Under the pieces are notes generated by a model. That model saw nothing but the letters and a program-made list of their open reading frames with translations. It ran no database searches and was not told the origin of the DNA. From Candidatus Rifleibacterium amylolyticum (GTDB taxonomy: Bacteria; Muiribacteriota; Ozemobacteria; Ozemobacterales; Ozemobacteraceae): 64,000 nt of DNA. The stretch spans positions 1-64,000 of the forward strand of contig JAACJG010000009.1 of assembly GCA_009917695.1 (NCBI GenBank), written 5' to 3'. Shown here one piece after another: positions 27,230 through 52,781 of this stretch; position 1 is the stretch's first letter; every line of letters begins with the position of its first letter. The position numbers were made by a program, and so were the translations under genes.

Positions 27230-27258
27230 TTGTAGAATTTGCGGGATTAGGCTATAAT
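27230..27258 (+). promoter_or_regulatory. Promoter of the five-module nuclease-fold gene
   Basis: TTGTAG, 17 bases, TATAAT (a perfect -10). Transcription would start about 25 bases before the ATG, and AAGGAG lies ten bases before it. Confidence 0.62.
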
Positions 27259-27289: not shown

Positions 27290-30200
27290 ATGGCCGACAA
27301 GCCTGACCTTTTTTCACGTCTGTTCAGAAAAACCCAGGAACACAAAAAAAGCATAGAACAGAAAGACAAGCCGGCACCGGTAGCGAAACAGCCGCCAGCA
27401 AAGCCAAACCCTGCGACACCTGCGAAAGATGCCAGACAGGCCGACACCAAAAACAAGGTAGGACTCAGCGGCAGTAAGATCGAGCTTTATCAGACCTGCC
27501 CCAAAAAATTCCATTTTACTTATATTCGCAAGGTTAAAAAGCCTTCAGCGCCGAGTCCACACCTGAGTTTCGATCAAACTCTGCATGCAGCGTTGAGCCG
27601 ATACTACAAAAACCGGCGTGGCGTCGAGCCGTTCAAACTTGACACGCTTTTCGCTCTTCTCGATGAGACCTGGGATCCCCGCGGCTACGAGAGCAAGGAG
27701 CAGGAAAACGAATATCGACACATGGCCGAATCGGCCCTGCGCATTTACTTTGAAAAGTTCTGCCAGACTCCGCCACGTAACATCGAAACCGACTATTTCT
27801 TTAAAGTAGATATCAGTGGCGGCGAATACAGCGGCAAAATCGACCGGGTCGACCGTCACCCGGACGGAACACTTGAACTCATCGACTACAAAAGCGGCAA
27901 GCAACCATACAACGGTGTCGACGAACTTGAGCAGTCTCTGGCGGTGCAGCTGCTGTTCGTTGCAACAGAGAGCATCTGGCCGGGCAAGGTCAAGAAGATC
28001 ACCTTCATCTATCTCAAAGACGGCAGCACGCTCAGTGTCATGCGCAACAACGCAGAAATGGCGCTGGCAGAAAAACGCTACCTGGATATCGGCGAAGCCA
28101 TTTATCAGGGAAAATTCGAACCGGTACGCTCGTCCGCCTGTGGTTACTGTGATTATCAGGATATCTGCCCGGTTGGTCAGATTCCGGCCCTGAATGCCTC
28201 AAAGATCCGAACATTTCTTGACTGCCCGCACAAATACGCGGCAATCTACGTCAAGCACCATAAAACCAGAACAGCCGATGAAGCACCTTCTTTCGACCTG
28301 GCGCTCGACCGCCCGCTGCATGATGCGCTGGCACAGTTTCATCGTGATTACCGCCCCACCCCGAACCGTTCACCCGAGAGCGCGATGTTCTCATTGCTTT
28401 TCAAGGCTATTCCAACCGATCTCCCCGAAGAGATGCAGGATCAGATCAAAAATACCGGCCGCGAATATCTGCAAAACTACCTCAATCACTTTTTCCCCAG
28501 GTCTAAAACCTGGCTGGTCAATGAATTTATCGAGTACAACACCGACACATTCTGTTTTCAGACAACAGTGGACCGCATCGACAGTGAAACTGACGGCAGT
28601 TACACCCTGATCGATTACAAAACCGGCAAGCGCATGCTTACAGCAGCTGAGCTTGCCAATGATCCGCTGACGGCGGCCGTCTGTGCAGCGGCCGACCAGC
28701 GCTGGCCCGGCAAAGTCAAAAGTTTCAGCTGCATCTACCTTCGTCACGGCGAAGAAGTCAGGCTTGAAGTCAATGACATGCTGATCAGAAAAGGCAATCA
28801 ACTGCTCTATTCGATTGGCGAACAGATCAGACAGAAGAATTTCGAACCGCTTGGCGGGCCAGTCTGTGCGACCTGTCCGGTATCCGGCATCTGCGGCGAA
28901 AAGCGCCTGGTCGTTTCGATGTCGAAGATTCAGACCCTGCGCGATTGTGCCAAGCGTTATCAGTTCAGGTATATCACCAAAGCGCCGGTTCCAGACAAAG
29001 AAAAACCTGCTATCGTTCTTTACCAGCTTCTGCAGGCAACCTTACAGGAATACGTCGGCAACGGCCGCCTGCAGGATGCCGGCCTGCTTCTGGAAAAAGC
29101 TTCGACGAGAGTCAACGAAGATCAGAGCCTGAGCCCGACAGCGAAGCAGGATGTATTGAGCAAAGCCTATACTGCCTTTCAGAATATCAACGAAAATTTA
29201 AAAAGCGGATTTCCCAAGATTCATTCCTTAGGCGAGCAGGCTCGAGTTGGCTACGAAGACCTGGTGCTGACGACCAGATTCGACCGGATCGATCTTCTGC
29301 CAAACGGCAACCTGCATGTCGTAATCTACAAGACCGGCAAAAAAGCCATGACCCCGCATGAAGCGCGACTCGATCTCAGTGGCATCTATAACTGGTTCAT
29401 CGCCGACCGGGTGTACCCAGGTCGAGTTGAGCGGCTTTCATATTTTTATCTGATGACCGGCGACGTTGTGCCCTTTACCCCGACCGAGCAGGATATAGAA
29501 CGTCTAAAGCTTACTTTCAGCGAATTTGTCAGGGAAAATCAGGATGCAACCTTTGAGGGTCAGCGCAACCCGCTCTGCCCCTACTGCGATTATGTCGAGA
29601 TATGCGAAGATGCGAAATCGATGCTGTTGTCGCCCAGCAAAATCAACTGTTTCACTTCATGTGCGCTCAAATACCGGATGAAATACATCGACCGTGTTCC
29701 CAAAGAAGCGCGTCCCACACCGAATCTCAGCTTTGACCGTTCGATACACTTTGCCCTGCGCGAGTTTCATGAGAACTATGAACCAGGCCAGTTCAAGAAG
29801 AACCCGTTCAGATCTATCATTAACAAATACTGGATTCGCGACGGTTACAACGATGCCGAAGAAGAAGAACGCTTCAAAGTGCGCGCCAATATGATGCTCG
29901 AAGAATATTTCAAAAGCCTGAATGGCAAAGAAAACCCGGTAATGTTCGAGATGTCGGCGAAATGGAGCTGGAACGGCGTCGACACGGTGGTGCAGATCGA
30001 CCGCATCGACCAGCTTCCCGACGGCAGATATGAAATAATAGATTACAAGACCGGCAAAAAGGTGCCGGATGAGCGTGTTATCAACGAAGATTCGAGCCTG
30101 ATGAACATGTATCTGGCCGCCAGTCAGAAGTGGCCGGGTAAGGTAGCGAAAGTTTCTTACCACTTTCTCTCTAACAACAAACGCTACACACTTGAGCCAA

Positions 30201-31162
30201 CTGATGCCGATATCGTCGCCCACAAAACGAAAATGGCCGAGCTGGTCGCTTTGATCAACAAAAATGAGTTCGAGCCAAACAAAGGCGCACTTTGCGCCTG
30301 GTGTGAATATTACGGCCCCTGCCCGGAATGGAAAATCAAGCCACACGAAATGGCCGGCGAAACACCAGAGCAGTTCAGACAGCGCATCAGGTTGAGCTAC
30401 TCGAAGATGAGTCTGTATCTCAACTGCCCGCGTTCTTATAAAAAGCTCTACATCGACAAGGTGCCGCCAAAACCGCAGCCGTTCTTCAGCTTTGGCACGA
30501 CCATTCACGAAACCTTCGAACGTGTTTACGACCCGATCAATCCGATACCCAAACCTTCTCTGGAGCGGGTTCTCGAGATTTACGATGAAGTCCGTCTGAC
30601 GCACCGTGAAGGCTTCGATTCTGACGCAACTGAAGCGCAATATCGTGAAGATGGCATTCGCCAGATAACCATGTATTACAACCGCTTTATCAAAGATTGC
30701 GAGTTCAAGCCAGCCTACTCGATCGAAGATTATTTTGAGATACCATGCGGAAAATATGCGGTCATGACCGGTTTCATCGATCGCATCGACAAGCTTGACG
30801 ACGGCACTTACGAGATTCTCGACTACAAGACCGAGCCGACCATGCGAACGCAGGAAGCGGTCGATACTGACAAGCAGCTGAGCATTTATTACTGGGCCTG
30901 CGAAGACACACTTGGGCTGAAAATCAGCAAACTGTCACTGCTGATGCTCGATCATGACTGCAAAGTCGAAACTACCCGTACTCGTGACAGCATACCCAAA
31001 GTTATCGAAACTATCGACAAGACGGCTTATGAAATGATTCACGAGAAAGACTTTCTGCCGCGCAAAAACAAGTATTGCAAGAGCTGCGATCATCTGCACG
31101 ACTGCCCGATGCGTGCCGAAGTCGAAGCCGACGAATCACTGATCTCGATGAAAAAATTCTGA
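27290..31162 (+). CDS. Protein of five tandem PD-(D/E)XK (RecB/Cas4-like) Fe-S modules
   Basis: The 1290 residues have a disordered Lys/Pro/Ala-rich N-terminus (1-55), then five modules of about 235-240 residues: roughly 58-295, 300-537, 540-775, 778-1015 and 1034-1275. Each has S-K-I/M-x-x-[FLY]-x-x-C near its start, a His about 30 residues later, [V/I/F]-D-R-[IV]-D, then I/L-D-Y-K, and finally C-x2-C-x5-C. This is the PDDEXK_1 plan with the one-plus-three cysteines that bind [4Fe-4S] in AddB and Cas4 nucleases. Catalytic residues are Asp185/Asp199/Lys201, Asp428/Asp442/Lys444, Asp904/Asp918/Lys920 and Asp1164/Asp1178/Lys1180. Module 3 has Ile679 in place of the second Asp and Gln582 in place of the His. 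There is no helicase domain and no neighbouring helicase or cas gene. It is probably a DNA-binding nuclease; the target and pathway are unknown. Monocistronic. Confidence 0.88.
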   Translation: MADKPDLFSRLFRKTQEHKKSIEQKDKPAPVAKQPPAKPNPATPAKDARQADTKNKVGLSGSKIELYQTCPKKFHFTYIRKVKKPSAPSPHLSFDQTLHAALSRYYKNRRGVEPFKLDTLFALLDETWDPRGYESKEQENEYRHMAESALRIYFEKFCQTPPRNIETDYFFKVDISGGEYSGKIDRVDRHPDGTLELIDYKSGKQPYNGVDELEQSLAVQLLFVATESIWPGKVKKITFIYLKDGSTLSVMRNNAEMALAEKRYLDIGEAIYQGKFEPVRSSACGYCDYQDICPVGQIPALNASKIRTFLDCPHKYAAIYVKHHKTRTADEAPSFDLALDRPLHDALAQFHRDYRPTPNRSPESAMFSLLFKAIPTDLPEEMQDQIKNTGREYLQNYLNHFFPRSKTWLVNEFIEYNTDTFCFQTTVDRIDSETDGSYTLIDYKTGKRMLTAAELANDPLTAAVCAAADQRWPGKVKSFSCIYLRHGEEVRLEVNDMLIRKGNQLLYSIGEQIRQKNFEPLGGPVCATCPVSGICGEKRLVVSMSKIQTLRDCAKRYQFRYITKAPVPDKEKPAIVLYQLLQATLQEYVGNGRLQDAGLLLEKASTRVNEDQSLSPTAKQDVLSKAYTAFQNINENLKSGFPKIHSLGEQARVGYEDLVLTTRFDRIDLLPNGNLHVVIYKTGKKAMTPHEARLDLSGIYNWFIADRVYPGRVERLSYFYLMTGDVVPFTPTEQDIERLKLTFSEFVRENQDATFEGQRNPLCPYCDYVEICEDAKSMLLSPSKINCFTSCALKYRMKYIDRVPKEARPTPNLSFDRSIHFALREFHENYEPGQFKKNPFRSIINKYWIRDGYNDAEEEERFKVRANMMLEEYFKSLNGKENPVMFEMSAKWSWNGVDTVVQIDRIDQLPDGRYEIIDYKTGKKVPDERVINEDSSLMNMYLAASQKWPGKVAKVSYHFLSNNKRYTLEPTDADIVAHKTKMAELVALINKNEFEPNKGALCAWCEYYGPCPEWKIKPHEMAGETPEQFRQRIRLSYSKMSLYLNCPRSYKKLYIDKVPPKPQPFFSFGTTIHETFERVYDPINPIPKPSLERVLEIYDEVRLTHREGFDSDATEAQYREDGIRQITMYYNRFIKDCEFKPAYSIEDYFEIPCGKYAVMTGFIDRIDKLDDGTYEILDYKTEPTMRTQEAVDTDKQLSIYYWACEDTLGLKISKLSLLMLDHDCKVETTRTRDSIPKVIETIDKTAYEMIHEKDFLPRKNKYCKSCDHLHDCPMRAEVEADESLISMKKF

Positions 31163-31580: not shown

Positions 31581-32153
31581 CTATTCGGTAAATGTCATCT
31601 CAAAAGCCAGTGTATTGGTTTTGACGCCGTTGATCGACATATAAAGTATCATCTGGTGCACGCCAAGAGGAGCCCCGTAGATATCCTGAGGCGTAAAGGG
31701 AATTTCTGCCGCCCACTGGCCTGCTTGATTATCAGTACCAATTTTGGTTGGTATGGCAATCGGATCTTTAAAACGCTGATAAAAAGCCTCGGTTTCGGCA
31801 TTGACGGCAAAGCGGCTGGTTGCATTGACTGAATTCAGAAGGCTCGCGGTTTTTGTCGCTGTATCAGAGGCTATAACGCCTACCGGTTCGGTGACGACAT
31901 CCTGAATCGTGCGAACGAAGCCAAGATATGCTGTGGCTGTCGAAACTGCCGATGGGCTTGTCCATTCGCAGCTTAACTTCATTATGCCCCCGGTGGTTTT
32001 TGAGATCGAAGTAGCTACTACCTGAAGCGACTGAATGGTAGGGGTCACATAAGAATAAGGCGGCAAAGGATCTTCGATCTGCCCGGTTTTATCACATCCG
32101 GCCAGAAAAAATGCGAACAGAAGCGCCGTCAGGGCTGTAACTTTTTTTAACAT
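31581..32153 (-). CDS. Lipoprotein of unknown function
   Basis: The protein has 190 residues from ATG 32153 (M-L-K-K-V...). A frame five codons longer lacks a better ribosome site. The lipobox F-L-A-G-C puts the lipid-modified Cys at residue 20. The mature part is beta-rich: Q-S-L-Q-V-V-A-T-S-I and K-L-S-C-E-W-T-S-P, then M-I-L-Y-M-S-I-N-G near the end. That pattern suggests an Ig- or FN3-like sandwich. No family is recognised. The gene is divergent from the M3 peptidase. Confidence 0.6.
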   Translation of the reverse strand: MLKKVTALTALLFAFFLAGCDKTGQIEDPLPPYSYVTPTIQSLQVVATSISKTTGGIMKLSCEWTSPSAVSTATAYLGFVRTIQDVVTEPVGVIASDTATKTASLLNSVNATSRFAVNAETEAFYQRFKDPIAIPTKIGTDNQAGQWAAEIPFTPQDIYGAPLGVHQMILYMSINGVKTNTLAFEMTFTE

Positions 32154-32316
32154 GTCTGATTCCGCCAAGTTGTTATGTATTAGTTATCGGTAGAACCGAC
32201 GCGAAACAAAAGAACAAACAAACCAGCATAAACCAACAGCCATTTTTTGTTGTCATTTATCGGCAAAAATTCTAATATAGAGAAAATTACTCTCACCCAG
32301 GAAAGGAAACACACTA

Positions 32317-46454: not shown

Positions 46455-49400
46455 TCAGCGCGGCGGCGGCGCGGCTTCGCGAATCACAGCACCGCTGTTG
46501 TCGGTCATTATGAGGATGGAGAACTTGTCGACATTGTCGAGCTGGCTGGTACTGATCGAGGCGTAGTCGAATTTTCCACGCAGATCAGTGTAGCCATCCT
46601 TGTAGAAATGAACCTGACCGTCCTTGTGTCGGGCATAGACCTTGATGTAGGCGCTTGAGACCGGGCGGCCGTCGTGCAGACCGGCAATCTGAACCTGGCC
46701 ATAAGTCTCGATCATGTTGATCGCCAGAGAATGCGGGTAATAGGCTGCTGACCGGCTCAATCCGCCACCGGTCACCTCGATCAGCATGTTGCGGTCTTTA
46801 TATTGCTCGGGAACTTCGATCGGCGACTGTGCCGCCTTTTCATCGAGAGTAAGCACGAGCGAATGATTCGGTCTGATGATCGAGAACTGCCCACTGACTT
46901 CCTGCACGAAGGGTTTGCGTGAGAACAGCAGTTCGATATCCATGAGATAGAAGTTAACTGTAACCTTCTCGAGGTTGCGGTGACGCAAAGTTACCTTGCG
47001 ATTGTCGATGGCAAGCTCGATGGACGGCTGACTGGCAGCCAGCATGCGTTGCTTCTGCTCGCGGTCTTCATCGTCGGTGAGTTTCGGGCCTGAGCCAGCT
47101 ATTTCGGCAGCCTGGGCGAGAATGTCGGCAAAGAAGTTGCGCCAGCGCACAACCGGGTAATCCTTGTAATTTTCGGCAATCTTGACGGCTTTTTCGGGGT
47201 CACTGTTCGAGAAGGCGAGATAAGCCTCTATATATTGATATTGGATCGTCTCAACAAGTGCCTTGTCAGTGATCTTCGCAAATTGCCGACCGGCATCTTC
47301 GATGCGATCCTGCAGCAGCAGGTAATAGACAACGGCAAGACGGTCGTAATCGCTGAGTTCCCTGCGGTAGCGCAGATCGTAGAGCAACGCCTGATACTGT
47401 GCGGCAAACTGGGCGTTGAGAATCTCACGTTTCTTGCCGAGCTGATAGACACGGGCATTGACCAGCGGCCAGTATTCCTTGTGCTGGTAAGTCTGGCGGT
47501 CAACCGGGTTCACCACCAGCAGATCACTGAAGAAGCTGCTGCCAACCTGGCTGGCAATCGGCGAACCGGCAAGATATTCACGAACTGCCGGCATATCGCG
47601 ATGCGTTATTCCGTAAGACCAGAGTGTGTGGTTGTAAGCGTGACGACTGCGCAACAAATCGAGAGTCTTTTTGAAGAAATCTTCATTCTTCATTCTGAAA
47701 GCGATTTTTTCGAGATCATGACGTTCGACGTTGCCACGGGCAAGGAATTCAAGGACTTCAGCGTCGCTGCCGTGCTGTGAGATCCAGGGCCATGAGGTTT
47801 TGTCGAAACTGGTCAATTCCTTAACCACGTTAAAAACGAATGGCCTGGCCGAAGCAAGCAGCTTCTCGTTCTCGGAGACATGCACCGGGTAATGCTTGAA
47901 TTTGCCAGGATGTGGGAAATAGAAGTAATACTCGGCGGTTTTGGTCGAGAAAGGTTCGAGCTGCAGGTGAATACTGCGAGTATACAGGCTTTGCAGGACC
48001 GGCACGGCGCCGTTGGGGATCTGCATCAGCACATCTACCTTTTTGATCGACGAGGTCGGATTAGTTATAACCACCTGACAGCCATAAACCCTGCGAATCA
48101 GAAATTCTTCGGTCACGAACTTGTCGAAGCGCTGGTTGCGCTCGTAGTAGTAGCGATCGTTGTAGGCGAAGAAGTTCTGACCGGTAAGAATGCTGGCGGT
48201 TTCATCGGCGGCAGTAGCCGGTCTTACTTCCTGGTGGAAAACGACGACGTTGCCGCCGGCTTTTAGCGACATTTTTCCGGCATTGAATTCGGTCTGATGC
48301 TTTTCGGCCTTGAACGGCAGATCGATGACGGCCAGGGCCATCATCATTTCGGCAAAGTTGCCGGTAGCCTCAGCGACATTGGTCGAGACGAACGAGCCGT
48401 TGCCGCGATGACAGGCGTAATCGCGCCAGAAGGCATTGATCTTGATGAGATCGGCGAGCTGCTGCTCGATGGGCAGCTGATAATAGTTGTTTTCAACCCA
48501 CTCTTCGGTGGTATCGACCTGTCTGAACATCTGGCGCACCTGTGCGCGACGGCCGCCCGCTTCCTGCATCTTGGCGCCCTCGAAGCCATCAGCGTAATCA
48601 GCAGCTTCTTCCTTCATTTCGCGCATTATACCAGCTGGCGCTGCTGATGGCGGTGGTGGCGGCGCCATCGGTTTCATCGCCCGCGACTTGGCAACTATTG
48701 AGGACATTGACGGGGCCGCGGACTCTTCCATATCCATTTCCATTTCCATCGGCTCGGGCTCAGCCAGGCTCAGATCATCATACTCATTCTGCGATTTAAC
48801 CGCATCTTCGAACGCAGCCGCGAATCCCTTGTCGTCACCAGTCTCGAGCGCACTACCCTTCAATGCCGTCTTGAACAGGTGATTGAAGCGCTCACGGTTT
48901 TCCGGCAGCAGATCGAAGCTGTCAGTCGAATGGCGCTCGAGCGAAGCACCCTGATCGGGCAGGCGCTGCCCGAGGAGAATGCGCTCGAAGGCGTTGAGGC
49001 GGCTGAATGCCCAGGGTTCGAGATATTCCTTGAGGTCGAGCTGCAGCAGCCATTTGTCGATGAAGGTCTTGTCGCGTTTGTTGGCGATATAAGGCTTCAC
49101 CACGTTGTCAAAGAACTTGCGATCCTTTTTGTAGATGAAGAAATTCAATTCGTGGCAGGAATACTTCGAATAGAGTTCGAGCTTGCGCGCTTCTTCGAGA
49201 GTCGGCCAGCCATTGATGAACGAAAATTCAGTCAACTTTGCATCAGCATTGAGCGCCATGAACAGGCGATACACGGCGGGCAGCGTATCGAACAGTTCGA
49301 TGCGGGTCGTCGTGATGTCTTCGATGGCAAGAGCTTTTTCAGCGGTCAGCGCAGTGATATTTTTCTGTTCGGAAAAATGCTTTTCAGGATCGAAGCCGCG

Positions 49401-52400
49401 TGCCAGGCGAAGATCGCGATGTTTTGCCGCGACTTCCGGAAAGGAGATTTCGCGGTAGGCGACAGCGTACTGATCGACCGCCAGAATCTGCAGGTTATGG
49501 CGCGGGCCGAACTGATTGAGATCGATTTCGAGCTGCCCGTTTTCGTCTGGCTGCAGGTTCGCCAGCAGTATCGATGGTTCTTCAAGAAAGTCAAGATTGA
49601 CGAAGCCCTGCATGCTTGTGGCAGCAGCATCTTTTTTGCGGTTGCGTTCGAGAGACGGGGCTCTCTGAGCAGATGGAGTTACCGCACCGCTCCAGGCGCC
49701 GCCGCCAAGGGCATCTCTGGTTGTCGTTTCGGTCTTGCGCAACGACCATGGGTTCAGAAGTAGTCCAGGGCGCCGTAACATGTTGCCCGGGAAGATCTTC
49801 GAATAACGTCTTTCGAGAATATAGCGATATTCATCGCCGATGTTTCGGCCTGACAGATAACGTGACTCAGGCAGAGAAAGAGCGGTAATGCCAAGCAACG
49901 GCGGCTGCATGGCGGCGAACTCGTCGAAGATCATGAATTCAGGCAGGAATCTTGCCGCAATAACATGCACGCGAATATCACGTCCGGTGTTGGTAAGATT
50001 TACGACCAGCTTGTTTCCGGATGAATCGGGTTTCGCTTCGACAATCTGCAGCGCCATCGGGCGGGTCAACGGCAGGCAGCGACGCTGGCCGACCAGATAA
50101 CCGCGCACCTTCTTCCCTTCGCCGATTTTAATCTGAATGGTATTGAGTGACTGTTTGAGATAGAGCTCAAAGTCGCCGGCCGGCAGGTCTTTGATCAACA
50201 GACCGCGATCTTTGCTGCTGACTTTGCCGGTAAAATCTTCGACATAAGTGCCGCCTCTGACTTCGTAAAGCGAGCAGATGTCTTCGATTTTAAGATCTGG
50301 CGCATCCGGCAACGGCACCACGATCTCGCTGCCAGTTCGTGCACAGATCTGCTCAGGCTGAGTCACCTGATCCTGGCCGGGCGAGAACTGATGGTCATTC
50401 ATGTCAGCCCCGCTCAATCGGACATACTGGATATCTTTGAGGGCGCCGAGATAGACTCTACCACTGTCATCAGTCTGCAGGGTGGTCAGCAGCGTTCGAC
50501 TGGTATAGCGATGCTTGACCTCGACGTTTACCGGAATCTGGGCGCAGGGCTCACCGCTTTTGCCGAGCAGTTCGACAATATGCATTGTGCCGGAACGGCG
50601 CACGAAGAAGCTCTGGGTCTTTTCGCTGCGATCGATCGCGTTTACCGAGAAGCGCCGATCGACATTGAGATCGATCTTTTTGCCCTGGCTGAGATTGTCG
50701 ATTTTGGCGCGGACCGCAAAGTTGATATGGCTGAGCTTTTCGGGAACCTTGAACTCAAAAGTAGACTCTTTGTCGTTGAACAGTTCGAATCCTGAAATTT
50801 CGCGGGTTGACACGACATCTTCGCGATCGGTCGAAGTTATCAGCAGTGCAACTTCTTTGAGCAGGCCGACATCGATCGGCATGCCGTTGAGAGTCAGGGC
50901 CGGGCGGAAAACCAGAGTGGCGGTCTTACCTTCTATCAGCGCCTCGCGGTCGATATGAAAGCTGCCGGTCAGGTTATAGCTTTCAGACTGATGATAAAAA
51001 GTGTGAAGTGCAGCAAAATCGCCCTGTTTAACCACGAACTTGCGATTCTGCGGAGAAGTGCTATAGGGAACATTGATCACACCCTGTTCATCTGGCTTAT
51101 ACTCCTGTCCGGCGAGCATGATTACGGCATCTTCGACCTGCTCACCCTCGTCGTTGAAGATAGTGAAGAGCTGGCCGGCCGGGCCGGAGCGCTCGGCGAA
51201 ATAGAGCTGCCCGCGTCGAATCAGCGCGCGGCTGCTCATGCCGTTTCCGATCAACTCGACGACATAGACTCCGTTATCTTTGAGTTCCGGGAATGCGAAT
51301 TTTTCGACGTGGCGCCGGTGTTCAGGCTGCGGGTATTCGATCAGACGCTCTTCGTTGGCAACCAGGCCGTCGAGATCGATTGCGGTGGTTACTTCTTCCA
51401 TGTTTTCGCGGTAGAAGCTGGAGAGATTGAGCTTATAGATTTTGACGATGAGCTTTTTAACGTTCTTGACGCGGACATCGAGTGAAATCTGATCCTGCGG
51501 TCTGATTACCAGACGGTTTGTTGGCAGCAGATCGAGCTCGATACGCTCTTTGAGTTCTTTAACTTCATGGGCGTTGAGCAGAGAGAACCACTGTTCCATG
51601 TCGCCAATGCCGTTAACGATCTTGGTTTCGGCAAAAATACGGTTGAGATAGTTGGTCTCGATATAGCTCTGAAAAATACCGGTATCGTTCTGATCGACAA
51701 GCAGTGCCTGCAGATAGTCGCGCACGATCGGCTCATCGCTGCCGATACGGTCGAACAGCGTTGATGAACTGTAATTGGCGTTGAGATCGACGCGGAAGTT
51801 GCGACCTTCATTGGTTTCGAGAATTGCCTGTTTGATATAGGAAACCGGACGCGGCAGCTTGAGATATTCGATGAACAGCGCCCTGTCGTAGACGCCGTTT
51901 TTGCGCTTGAGGTCGAGAATATGATAGATCAGGTGCGCTTTGAGCGAGTTGAAAAGTGGTTCGAGCGGCCTAACATATTGATACATATTTTCCAGCAGTT
52001 CGAGCTTGATCTGGTCGTTCTGCTGCCAGTTGGTATCTTCGCCCGGCTGCATCTTGCGCAGATAGGCAAGGACAAAATTGCTGTTTTTCAGCAATTCCGG
52101 CATTTTGCCGGCCAGCTGATCGAGCTGGCTGCGCAGCAGCTGGTTATGAATGTTCATGCTGCCAAAACCACCGCTGTGTTTGTATTTAAGATCATCGACG
52201 ATCATCTGCACCATATTTTTACCCTGCGGGCGCGTCATGCGACGCAGCAGATCACGCCGCTGATCTGGATTCAGGCGTTTTTCGATCATCGCTTCGACGC
52301 CGGCGACTTCGAATCCGCCGAGATCGGAATACTCGCTGAGAGCCTGATTTATGAAGGCATCTGAACTGAAGGCTTTTTCATCGAGAATACTCGGATAAGT

Positions 52401-52781
52401 ACTCTTGCTGACAGTCTGCTCTTTCTGGTGATCGAAGCGCAGGTTAAGCTTTCTTGTTATATGGTCGAAAGCTTTGCCCGGGTCTTTGCCGTAATTGAGT
52501 AATGCCTCTCGGTTGCGGATTTCTTCGACCTGAGAAGTATGGCCATAGCGTTTTATCCACTGTTCGAGAAGTTTTTCGAGCTGCTCGTTTTCGCCGCGCA
52601 GCTGATGATAGAGACACCAGTAATAATAATAGTCTGGAGTTCCCGGGATCAGCTGTTTAAGTGCTTCAGCACGGTCTTCGGCGAGACAGAATTCCTCGTC
52701 GAAACCGATCTCGGCGGCCTGTGCCGAATTAATACAAAGCACGCCGTAGCAAACCAGACAAAGCAGAATCAGAAGTTTCAT
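46455..52781 (-). CDS. Giant exported macroglobulin-like protein
   Basis: The 2108 residues begin with a signal peptide (1-22, ending A-Q-A). Residues about 420-640 look like macroglobulin (MG) beta-sandwich domains: V-R-V-K-N-V-K-K-L-I-V-K-I-Y-K-L-N, then G-V-Y-V-V-E-L. Further beta-rich domains follow, a low-complexity linker near 1340-1400 (M-E-M-E-M-D-M-E-E, P-P-P-P-P), then a mostly helical stretch and C-terminal beta domains. I see no G-C-x-E-Q thioester motif. Alpha-2-macroglobulins in bacteria trap proteases in the periplasm or act with MagABC-type partners; here only the general likeness is clear and function is unknown. Single gene, ribosome site GGAGG. Confidence 0.62.
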   Translation of the reverse strand: MKLLILLCLVCYGVLCINSAQAAEIGFDEEFCLAEDRAEALKQLIPGTPDYYYYWCLYHQLRGENEQLEKLLEQWIKRYGHTSQVEEIRNREALLNYGKDPGKAFDHITRKLNLRFDHQKEQTVSKSTYPSILDEKAFSSDAFINQALSEYSDLGGFEVAGVEAMIEKRLNPDQRRDLLRRMTRPQGKNMVQMIVDDLKYKHSGGFGSMNIHNQLLRSQLDQLAGKMPELLKNSNFVLAYLRKMQPGEDTNWQQNDQIKLELLENMYQYVRPLEPLFNSLKAHLIYHILDLKRKNGVYDRALFIEYLKLPRPVSYIKQAILETNEGRNFRVDLNANYSSSTLFDRIGSDEPIVRDYLQALLVDQNDTGIFQSYIETNYLNRIFAETKIVNGIGDMEQWFSLLNAHEVKELKERIELDLLPTNRLVIRPQDQISLDVRVKNVKKLIVKIYKLNLSSFYRENMEEVTTAIDLDGLVANEERLIEYPQPEHRRHVEKFAFPELKDNGVYVVELIGNGMSSRALIRRGQLYFAERSGPAGQLFTIFNDEGEQVEDAVIMLAGQEYKPDEQGVINVPYSTSPQNRKFVVKQGDFAALHTFYHQSESYNLTGSFHIDREALIEGKTATLVFRPALTLNGMPIDVGLLKEVALLITSTDREDVVSTREISGFELFNDKESTFEFKVPEKLSHINFAVRAKIDNLSQGKKIDLNVDRRFSVNAIDRSEKTQSFFVRRSGTMHIVELLGKSGEPCAQIPVNVEVKHRYTSRTLLTTLQTDDSGRVYLGALKDIQYVRLSGADMNDHQFSPGQDQVTQPEQICARTGSEIVVPLPDAPDLKIEDICSLYEVRGGTYVEDFTGKVSSKDRGLLIKDLPAGDFELYLKQSLNTIQIKIGEGKKVRGYLVGQRRCLPLTRPMALQIVEAKPDSSGNKLVVNLTNTGRDIRVHVIAARFLPEFMIFDEFAAMQPPLLGITALSLPESRYLSGRNIGDEYRYILERRYSKIFPGNMLRRPGLLLNPWSLRKTETTTRDALGGGAWSGAVTPSAQRAPSLERNRKKDAAATSMQGFVNLDFLEEPSILLANLQPDENGQLEIDLNQFGPRHNLQILAVDQYAVAYREISFPEVAAKHRDLRLARGFDPEKHFSEQKNITALTAEKALAIEDITTTRIELFDTLPAVYRLFMALNADAKLTEFSFINGWPTLEEARKLELYSKYSCHELNFFIYKKDRKFFDNVVKPYIANKRDKTFIDKWLLQLDLKEYLEPWAFSRLNAFERILLGQRLPDQGASLERHSTDSFDLLPENRERFNHLFKTALKGSALETGDDKGFAAAFEDAVKSQNEYDDLSLAEPEPMEMEMDMEESAAPSMSSIVAKSRAMKPMAPPPPPSAAPAGIMREMKEEAADYADGFEGAKMQEAGGRRAQVRQMFRQVDTTEEWVENNYYQLPIEQQLADLIKINAFWRDYACHRGNGSFVSTNVAEATGNFAEMMMALAVIDLPFKAEKHQTEFNAGKMSLKAGGNVVVFHQEVRPATAADETASILTGQNFFAYNDRYYYERNQRFDKFVTEEFLIRRVYGCQVVITNPTSSIKKVDVLMQIPNGAVPVLQSLYTRSIHLQLEPFSTKTAEYYFYFPHPGKFKHYPVHVSENEKLLASARPFVFNVVKELTSFDKTSWPWISQHGSDAEVLEFLARGNVERHDLEKIAFRMKNEDFFKKTLDLLRSRHAYNHTLWSYGITHRDMPAVREYLAGSPIASQVGSSFFSDLLVVNPVDRQTYQHKEYWPLVNARVYQLGKKREILNAQFAAQYQALLYDLRYRRELSDYDRLAVVYYLLLQDRIEDAGRQFAKITDKALVETIQYQYIEAYLAFSNSDPEKAVKIAENYKDYPVVRWRNFFADILAQAAEIAGSGPKLTDDEDREQKQRMLAASQPSIELAIDNRKVTLRHRNLEKVTVNFYLMDIELLFSRKPFVQEVSGQFSIIRPNHSLVLTLDEKAAQSPIEVPEQYKDRNMLIEVTGGGLSRSAAYYPHSLAINMIETYGQVQIAGLHDGRPVSSAYIKVYARHKDGQVHFYKDGYTDLRGKFDYASISTSQLDNVDKFSILIMTDNSGAVIREAAPPPR

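Follow-up and report, generated by a model that had tools for sequence, protein, structure and literature searches.

The window, i.e. the whole 64,000-nucleotide stretch of DNA analysed here, corresponds to positions 1-64,000 of contig JAACJG010000009.1 (GCA_009917695.1) of Candidatus Rifleibacterium amylolyticum, a member of Candidatus Riflebacteria with a genome of 5.39 Mb. At 27290-31162 (plus strand) it carries a single ORF with an ATG start, coding for a 1290-aa protein made up of five Fe-S PD-(D/E)XK modules. The sequence AAGGAG, which resembles a ribosome binding site, lies 10 nt 5' of the ATG, and a promoter-like TTGTAG-17-TATAAT, a consensus match only, can be read directly upstream (27230..27258, plus strand). 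With a divergent Sel1-repeat gene on one side and a convergent gene of 195 codons (31581-32168) on the other, the five-module gene probably forms a transcription unit of its own. The product of the convergent gene belongs to no known family; it adjoins the five-module gene in genera g1 and g8, and apart from it no conserved operon partner was found beside the five-module gene. There is no helicase, cas or recombination gene next to it either, as the first-pass annotation had stated, and no cas or Argonaute gene was found among the annotated genes of the window. Elsewhere in the window (46455-52781) there is a 2108-aa ORF without a Pfam family.

The five modules in a row, which the first-pass annotation had described from the sequence, were recovered by two kinds of profile. 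The Pfam model PDDEXK_1 (PF12705) matched the protein in five stretches (E 1.1e-128), with 428.8 bits against a cut-off of 22 and against 50 bits for the Cas_Cas4 model. A module HMM placed five domains at residues 56-297, 298-539, 539-776, 777-1015 and 1032-1276; its training set included the five modules of this protein, and independent orthologues show the identical five-domain layout. All twenty cysteine positions listed earlier proved to be exact, and the four cysteines predicted to hold a 4Fe-4S cluster are present in each of the five modules.

The protein starts with a leader (27290..27454, all features here being on the plus strand), which consists of the amphipathic, cationic segment PDLFSRLFRKT and a proline-rich linker. 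Module M1 (residues 56-297; 27455..28180) has its cluster cysteines at 70/284/287/293 and retains the His, the G-x-x-D and the DYK motifs. M2 (residues 298-538; 28181..28903; cysteines 312/526/529/535) and M4 (residues 777-1016; 29618..30337; cysteines 791/1002/1005/1011) both keep the His, the Asp and DYK, and have lost the Gly and Gln motifs. M3 (residues 539-776; 28904..29617; cysteines 553/763/766/772) lies between them and lacks the His and the Asp of D-x-K. A linker that is highly conserved in the alignment, with dN near zero (residues 1017-1029; 30338..30376), leads to M5 (residues 1030-1276; 30377..31117; cysteines 1046/1263/1266/1272), a C-type module with the complete active site (H, GFID, DYK, QLxxY). 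The conserved C-terminal tail (31118..31159) ends with LISMKKF. Pairwise identity among the five modules is 19-29%, thus they do not stem from a recent duplication, in line with the earlier view; recent tandem duplication was also rejected because each module is orthologous across genera.

The upstream His and the catalytic D ... D-x-K are present in M1, M2, M4 and M5, and absent from M3, where across the orthologues Gln or Arg replaces the His, and Ile or Val replaces the Asp. The original description had assigned a His to every module and an altered D-Y-K to M3; the loss of the Asp was correctly seen, but M3 has no His either. When 70 modules from Riflebacteria and their relatives were compared, the four cysteines were conserved in all 70. 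The combination of His, D and D-x-K was complete in 22/22 C-type modules (M5 and its equivalents) and in all seven single-module relatives, but only in 25 of the 41 N-type modules, and in 5/13 of the N-modules of two-module proteins. Judged by these residues the modules are unequal: M5 is intact everywhere, M1 is intact, M2 and M4 are eroded, and M3 is predicted to be dead. The cysteines persist in modules whose active site has decayed, and such Fe-S PD-(D/E)XK modules therefore appear to be kept for roles other than cutting. The dN/dS ratios, where computable, were 0.01-0.13 per module, lowest or near-lowest in M5; many dS values were saturated, so that only the lowness of the ratio is meaningful, and by this measure every module is under purifying selection. 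M3 modelled alone folded with a pLDDT of 85 and a pTM of 0.80, and its best matches in the PDB were the Argonaute-associated Cas4 ACE1, followed by AdnA/AddB/Dna2, thus even the presumably dead M3 keeps the fold of an Fe-S nuclease. M4-M5 modelled together reached a pLDDT of only 56, and this model was set aside.

When 40 genomes of the phylum were compared, the protein proved to be restricted to a single family of Candidatus Riflebacteria; 14 of the 24 genomes sampled from this family have a five-module orthologue. The orthologues are 53-89% identical over all five modules. The five-module form was found in genera g1, g3, g4, g8 and g9 (some copies are split across contig ends), a C-terminal fragment of it in g7, a three-module form (M1, M3, M5) in g11 and a two-module form (M4, M5) in g2, whereas six of the 24 family genomes lack the protein. 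The three-module locus adjoins truA-rplM-rpsI, which is uninformative. In comparisons across genera each module clusters with its counterparts, which indicates that the five-module form is old. The identity over all five modules, the low dN/dS ratios and the fold match of M3 show that the gene is real and conserved, not a chance ORF. An assembly artefact was rejected because independent assemblies have the identical architecture. For an origin from phages or plasmids we found partial matches only, with less than 30% identity and none covering most of the query. On the same strand, out of frame over the five-module gene of G015, runs a 1452-aa ORF (L041 7627-11985), which is probably an artefact of composition.

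A search of 287 genomes with M5 as query identified, in other lineages, two-module relatives of 485-590 aa, at most 52% identical to M5. In the tree M5 and the C-modules of these relatives share a clade (support 98/91), i.e. M5 is a C-type module orthologous to them, and M1-M4 fall among the N-type modules with weak internal support. We infer that the five-module form probably arose by the addition of N-type modules before the C-type module. Elsewhere modules occur singly, in some cases as part of a fusion protein: at L108 5962-7728 a PDDEXK_1 module is joined to a GGDEF diguanylate cyclase domain, and in G291 (L159 1-2217) a module of the PDDEXK kind to a DEAD-box helicase.

The survey of homologue neighbourhoods, which the first-pass annotation had proposed, gave different answers for the two forms. 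In none of the Riflebacteria loci does the five-module gene adjoin com genes, but the two-module relatives do so in 17/21 genomes and in seven of ten families (comEC, comEA, a ComEC-like metallo-beta-lactamase gene, MBL, or a DHH gene). If the chance per family is assumed to be 1-3%, seven of ten would arise by chance with P <1e-8. The order in G116, G287 and G289 is comEC, comEA (helix-hairpin-helix), a separate ComEC-like MBL, the two-module nuclease and a DHH phosphoesterase; the G287 contig begins at the MBL. The nuclease gene is directly upstream of comEC in G271, G294, G295, G297, G068 and G215, and a longer variant of it occupies the same position in G068 and G293. It lies between the MBL and a second comEC in G252, G111 and G391, next to comEA and MBL in G290, and near comEA or an MBL-HHH protein in G281, G145 and G416. 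No com neighbour was seen in the remaining three families (G279, G292 and the f140 pair G171 and G319), the f140 loci ending at or near a contig end. The link of the two-module family to competence is thus well supported. Two side observations concern these clusters. A 1139-aa paralogue with an insert of about 480 aa of no known family in its N-module stands directly before comEC (L107 7053-10472, also L214), and a 574-aa UvrD-like protein is encoded between comEC and the MBL/nuclease genes (L098 2502-4226, L100 11642-13366) in clusters that contain a second comEC.

The genome from which the window comes encodes DprA and two ComEC proteins, a standard one of about 745 aa and a long one of 977 aa. 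The operon of the long comEC (L141 8473-14549, G000:C1) has the order comEC2, comEA, MBL, DHH phosphoesterase, a 138-aa protein and a Clp1/NOL9-type polynucleotide kinase (L141 14941-16230; L148 8623-9876), and contains no nuclease gene, thus it corresponds to the G116 order minus the nuclease. The kinase and the DHH phosphoesterase are unusual partners for DNA uptake. Within the family the long comEC is present in 13/14 genomes with the five-module gene and in none of the ten others (Fisher 6e-6, a value that overstates the association because the genomes are related and not independent). Nine of these ten others keep comEA-MBL or at least MBL. A tree built from the operon proteins places the genomes that lack comEC2 in two distinct groups, which suggests that comEC2 was lost twice independently, each time apparently together with shortening or loss of the nuclease; three-module (G018, G021, G022) and two-module (G006) forms do occur without long comEC. 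The exception, G003, has the five-module gene, and no long comEC or operon-type MBL was found in its fragmented, 9% contaminated assembly.

The explanation we favour, to which we would give roughly an even chance, is that the five-module gene is an expansion, within a single Riflebacteria family, of a family of two-module Fe-S nucleases acting in ComEC-type DNA uptake, with M5, perhaps together with M1, cutting and the other modules mainly binding. The expansion part of this proposal is based on the tree, in which M5 joins the two-module C-modules and stands apart from M1-M4, and the competence part on the com adjacency in other lineages and on the co-occurrence with long comEC in Riflebacteria. 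The five-module protein shows no signal sequence, and cytosolic synthesis is the rule for Fe-S proteins, so it should be cytosolic and meet the strand that leaves ComEC. Its N-terminal segment could anchor it to the membrane: amphipathic, cationic N-termini were found in the Riflebacteria proteins and in G271, G068, G215, G252 and G111, and not in the others, although the amphipathic moment of the leader, reached by 4% of shuffles, is a weak signal. The single strand emerging from ComEC would thread along the modules, stabilised by their Fe-S clusters and mainly binding it, and M5, perhaps also M1, would cut it. The pieces may then pass to the DHH phosphoesterase and the Clp1-type kinase of the com operon, whose genes fit a salvage or end-processing role. 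If so, the protein would either trim or destroy imported DNA (nutrition, policing) and lower transformation, or prepare DNA ends for recombination and aid it. It also speaks for the proposal that Synechococcus becomes strongly more transformable once a Cas4 homologue is lost (PMC7125226), and that a Cas4, ACE1, is the closest fold to M3. Against it stand the absence of com neighbours in all Riflebacteria loci, the shorter forms without long comEC, the case of G003 and the three two-module families with no com neighbour. A more far-reaching reading, which we think rather unlikely, is a dedicated cytosolic receiver present in several phyla and enlarged from two to five modules in Riflebacteria, in which a chain of pseudo-nucleases would grip the ComEC strand and feed it to the terminal nuclease, perhaps under redox control.

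It is possible, if rather unlikely, that the protein is a general repair exonuclease of the RecB/COG2887 type, acting together with separately encoded helicases on the ends of chromosomal DNA, and that the com link is ancestral and now irrelevant in Riflebacteria. The single, unlinked state of the gene in Riflebacteria, the persistence of the shorter forms without long comEC and the AddB/AdnA-like fold would all agree with this, but two AddAB-type UvrD-PDDEXK helicase-nucleases are already encoded in the genome (G000:C6), and the occurrence of the five-module form closely matches that of long comEC. The first-pass annotation had suggested a scaffold for multi-site DNA or RNA processing or for sensing; a DNA-handling array is reasonable, whereas we found no support for RNA processing or sensing. 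A pure binding or sensing scaffold, whose five Fe-S clusters would hold single-stranded DNA and react to the redox state with no important cutting, would explain why all modules keep the four cysteines while many N-type modules have lost catalytic residues, yet we regard it as improbable in view of the invariably complete active sites of the C-type modules and the lowest or near-lowest dN/dS of M5. Improbable too, in our opinion, is a Cas4-like or Argonaute-associated defence nuclease against foreign DNA, which would be in accord with the Cas4 profile matches and with ACE1 as the closest fold to M3, but not with the far better fit of PDDEXK_1, the lack of cas and Argonaute genes among the annotated window genes and the vertical inheritance within one family; an attack on DNA entering by ComEC would be common to this and to the favoured explanation.

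Single Fe-S PD-(D/E)XK nucleases are well known. In the open-access literature we found no description of a tandem form or of a comEC-linked family of such nucleases, thus the two-module family and its proposed competence role are apparently undescribed so far. Each module is a full member of the PDDEXK_1/COG2887 RecB-family exonucleases in fold, motifs and C-x2-C-x5-C signature, but these normally have one module per protein, whereas here there are five, three of them eroded. ACE1 of cyanobacteria (PDB 9iab, 9iac) is the closest solved fold to M3 (TM 0.74), but it is a single domain linked to Argonaute and only 15-17% identical. The nuclease domains of AddB and AdnA/AdnB, matched in sequence and fold, are likewise Fe-S PD-(D/E)XK domains that handle DNA ends, but they are attached to a helicase and occur once per chain; the five-module protein consists of PDDEXK_1 modules without a helicase or helicase-like N-terminal part, and the AddB and RexB models scored far below their cut-offs. 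Cas4, solo-Cas4 and the pfam12705 Cas4-like proteins share the superfamily and the cluster (PMC5704561), and besides Cas_Cas4 the TIGR00372 model (96.8 bits summed over modules, cut-off 65) and PADLOC Cas4 matched, but the best profile is PDDEXK_1 and not Cas4, and there is no cas1/cas2 or other cas gene among the annotated neighbours. The survey of Cas4/pfam12705 contexts describes UvrD, phage and COG1205 contexts, and its main text nowhere uses the terms competence, tandem or ComEC (PMC5704561). The beta-lactamase-like nuclease of ComEC and EndA (PMC8579336, PMC12455585) belong to the same pathway, natural transformation, but have unrelated folds and act outside the membrane on the non-imported strand. 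ComEC passes the other strand to the cytoplasm, where its handling has been described as poorly understood (PMC12455585), and an Fe-S nuclease family encoded in comEC operons is a concrete, testable candidate for this step on the inner face of ComEC.
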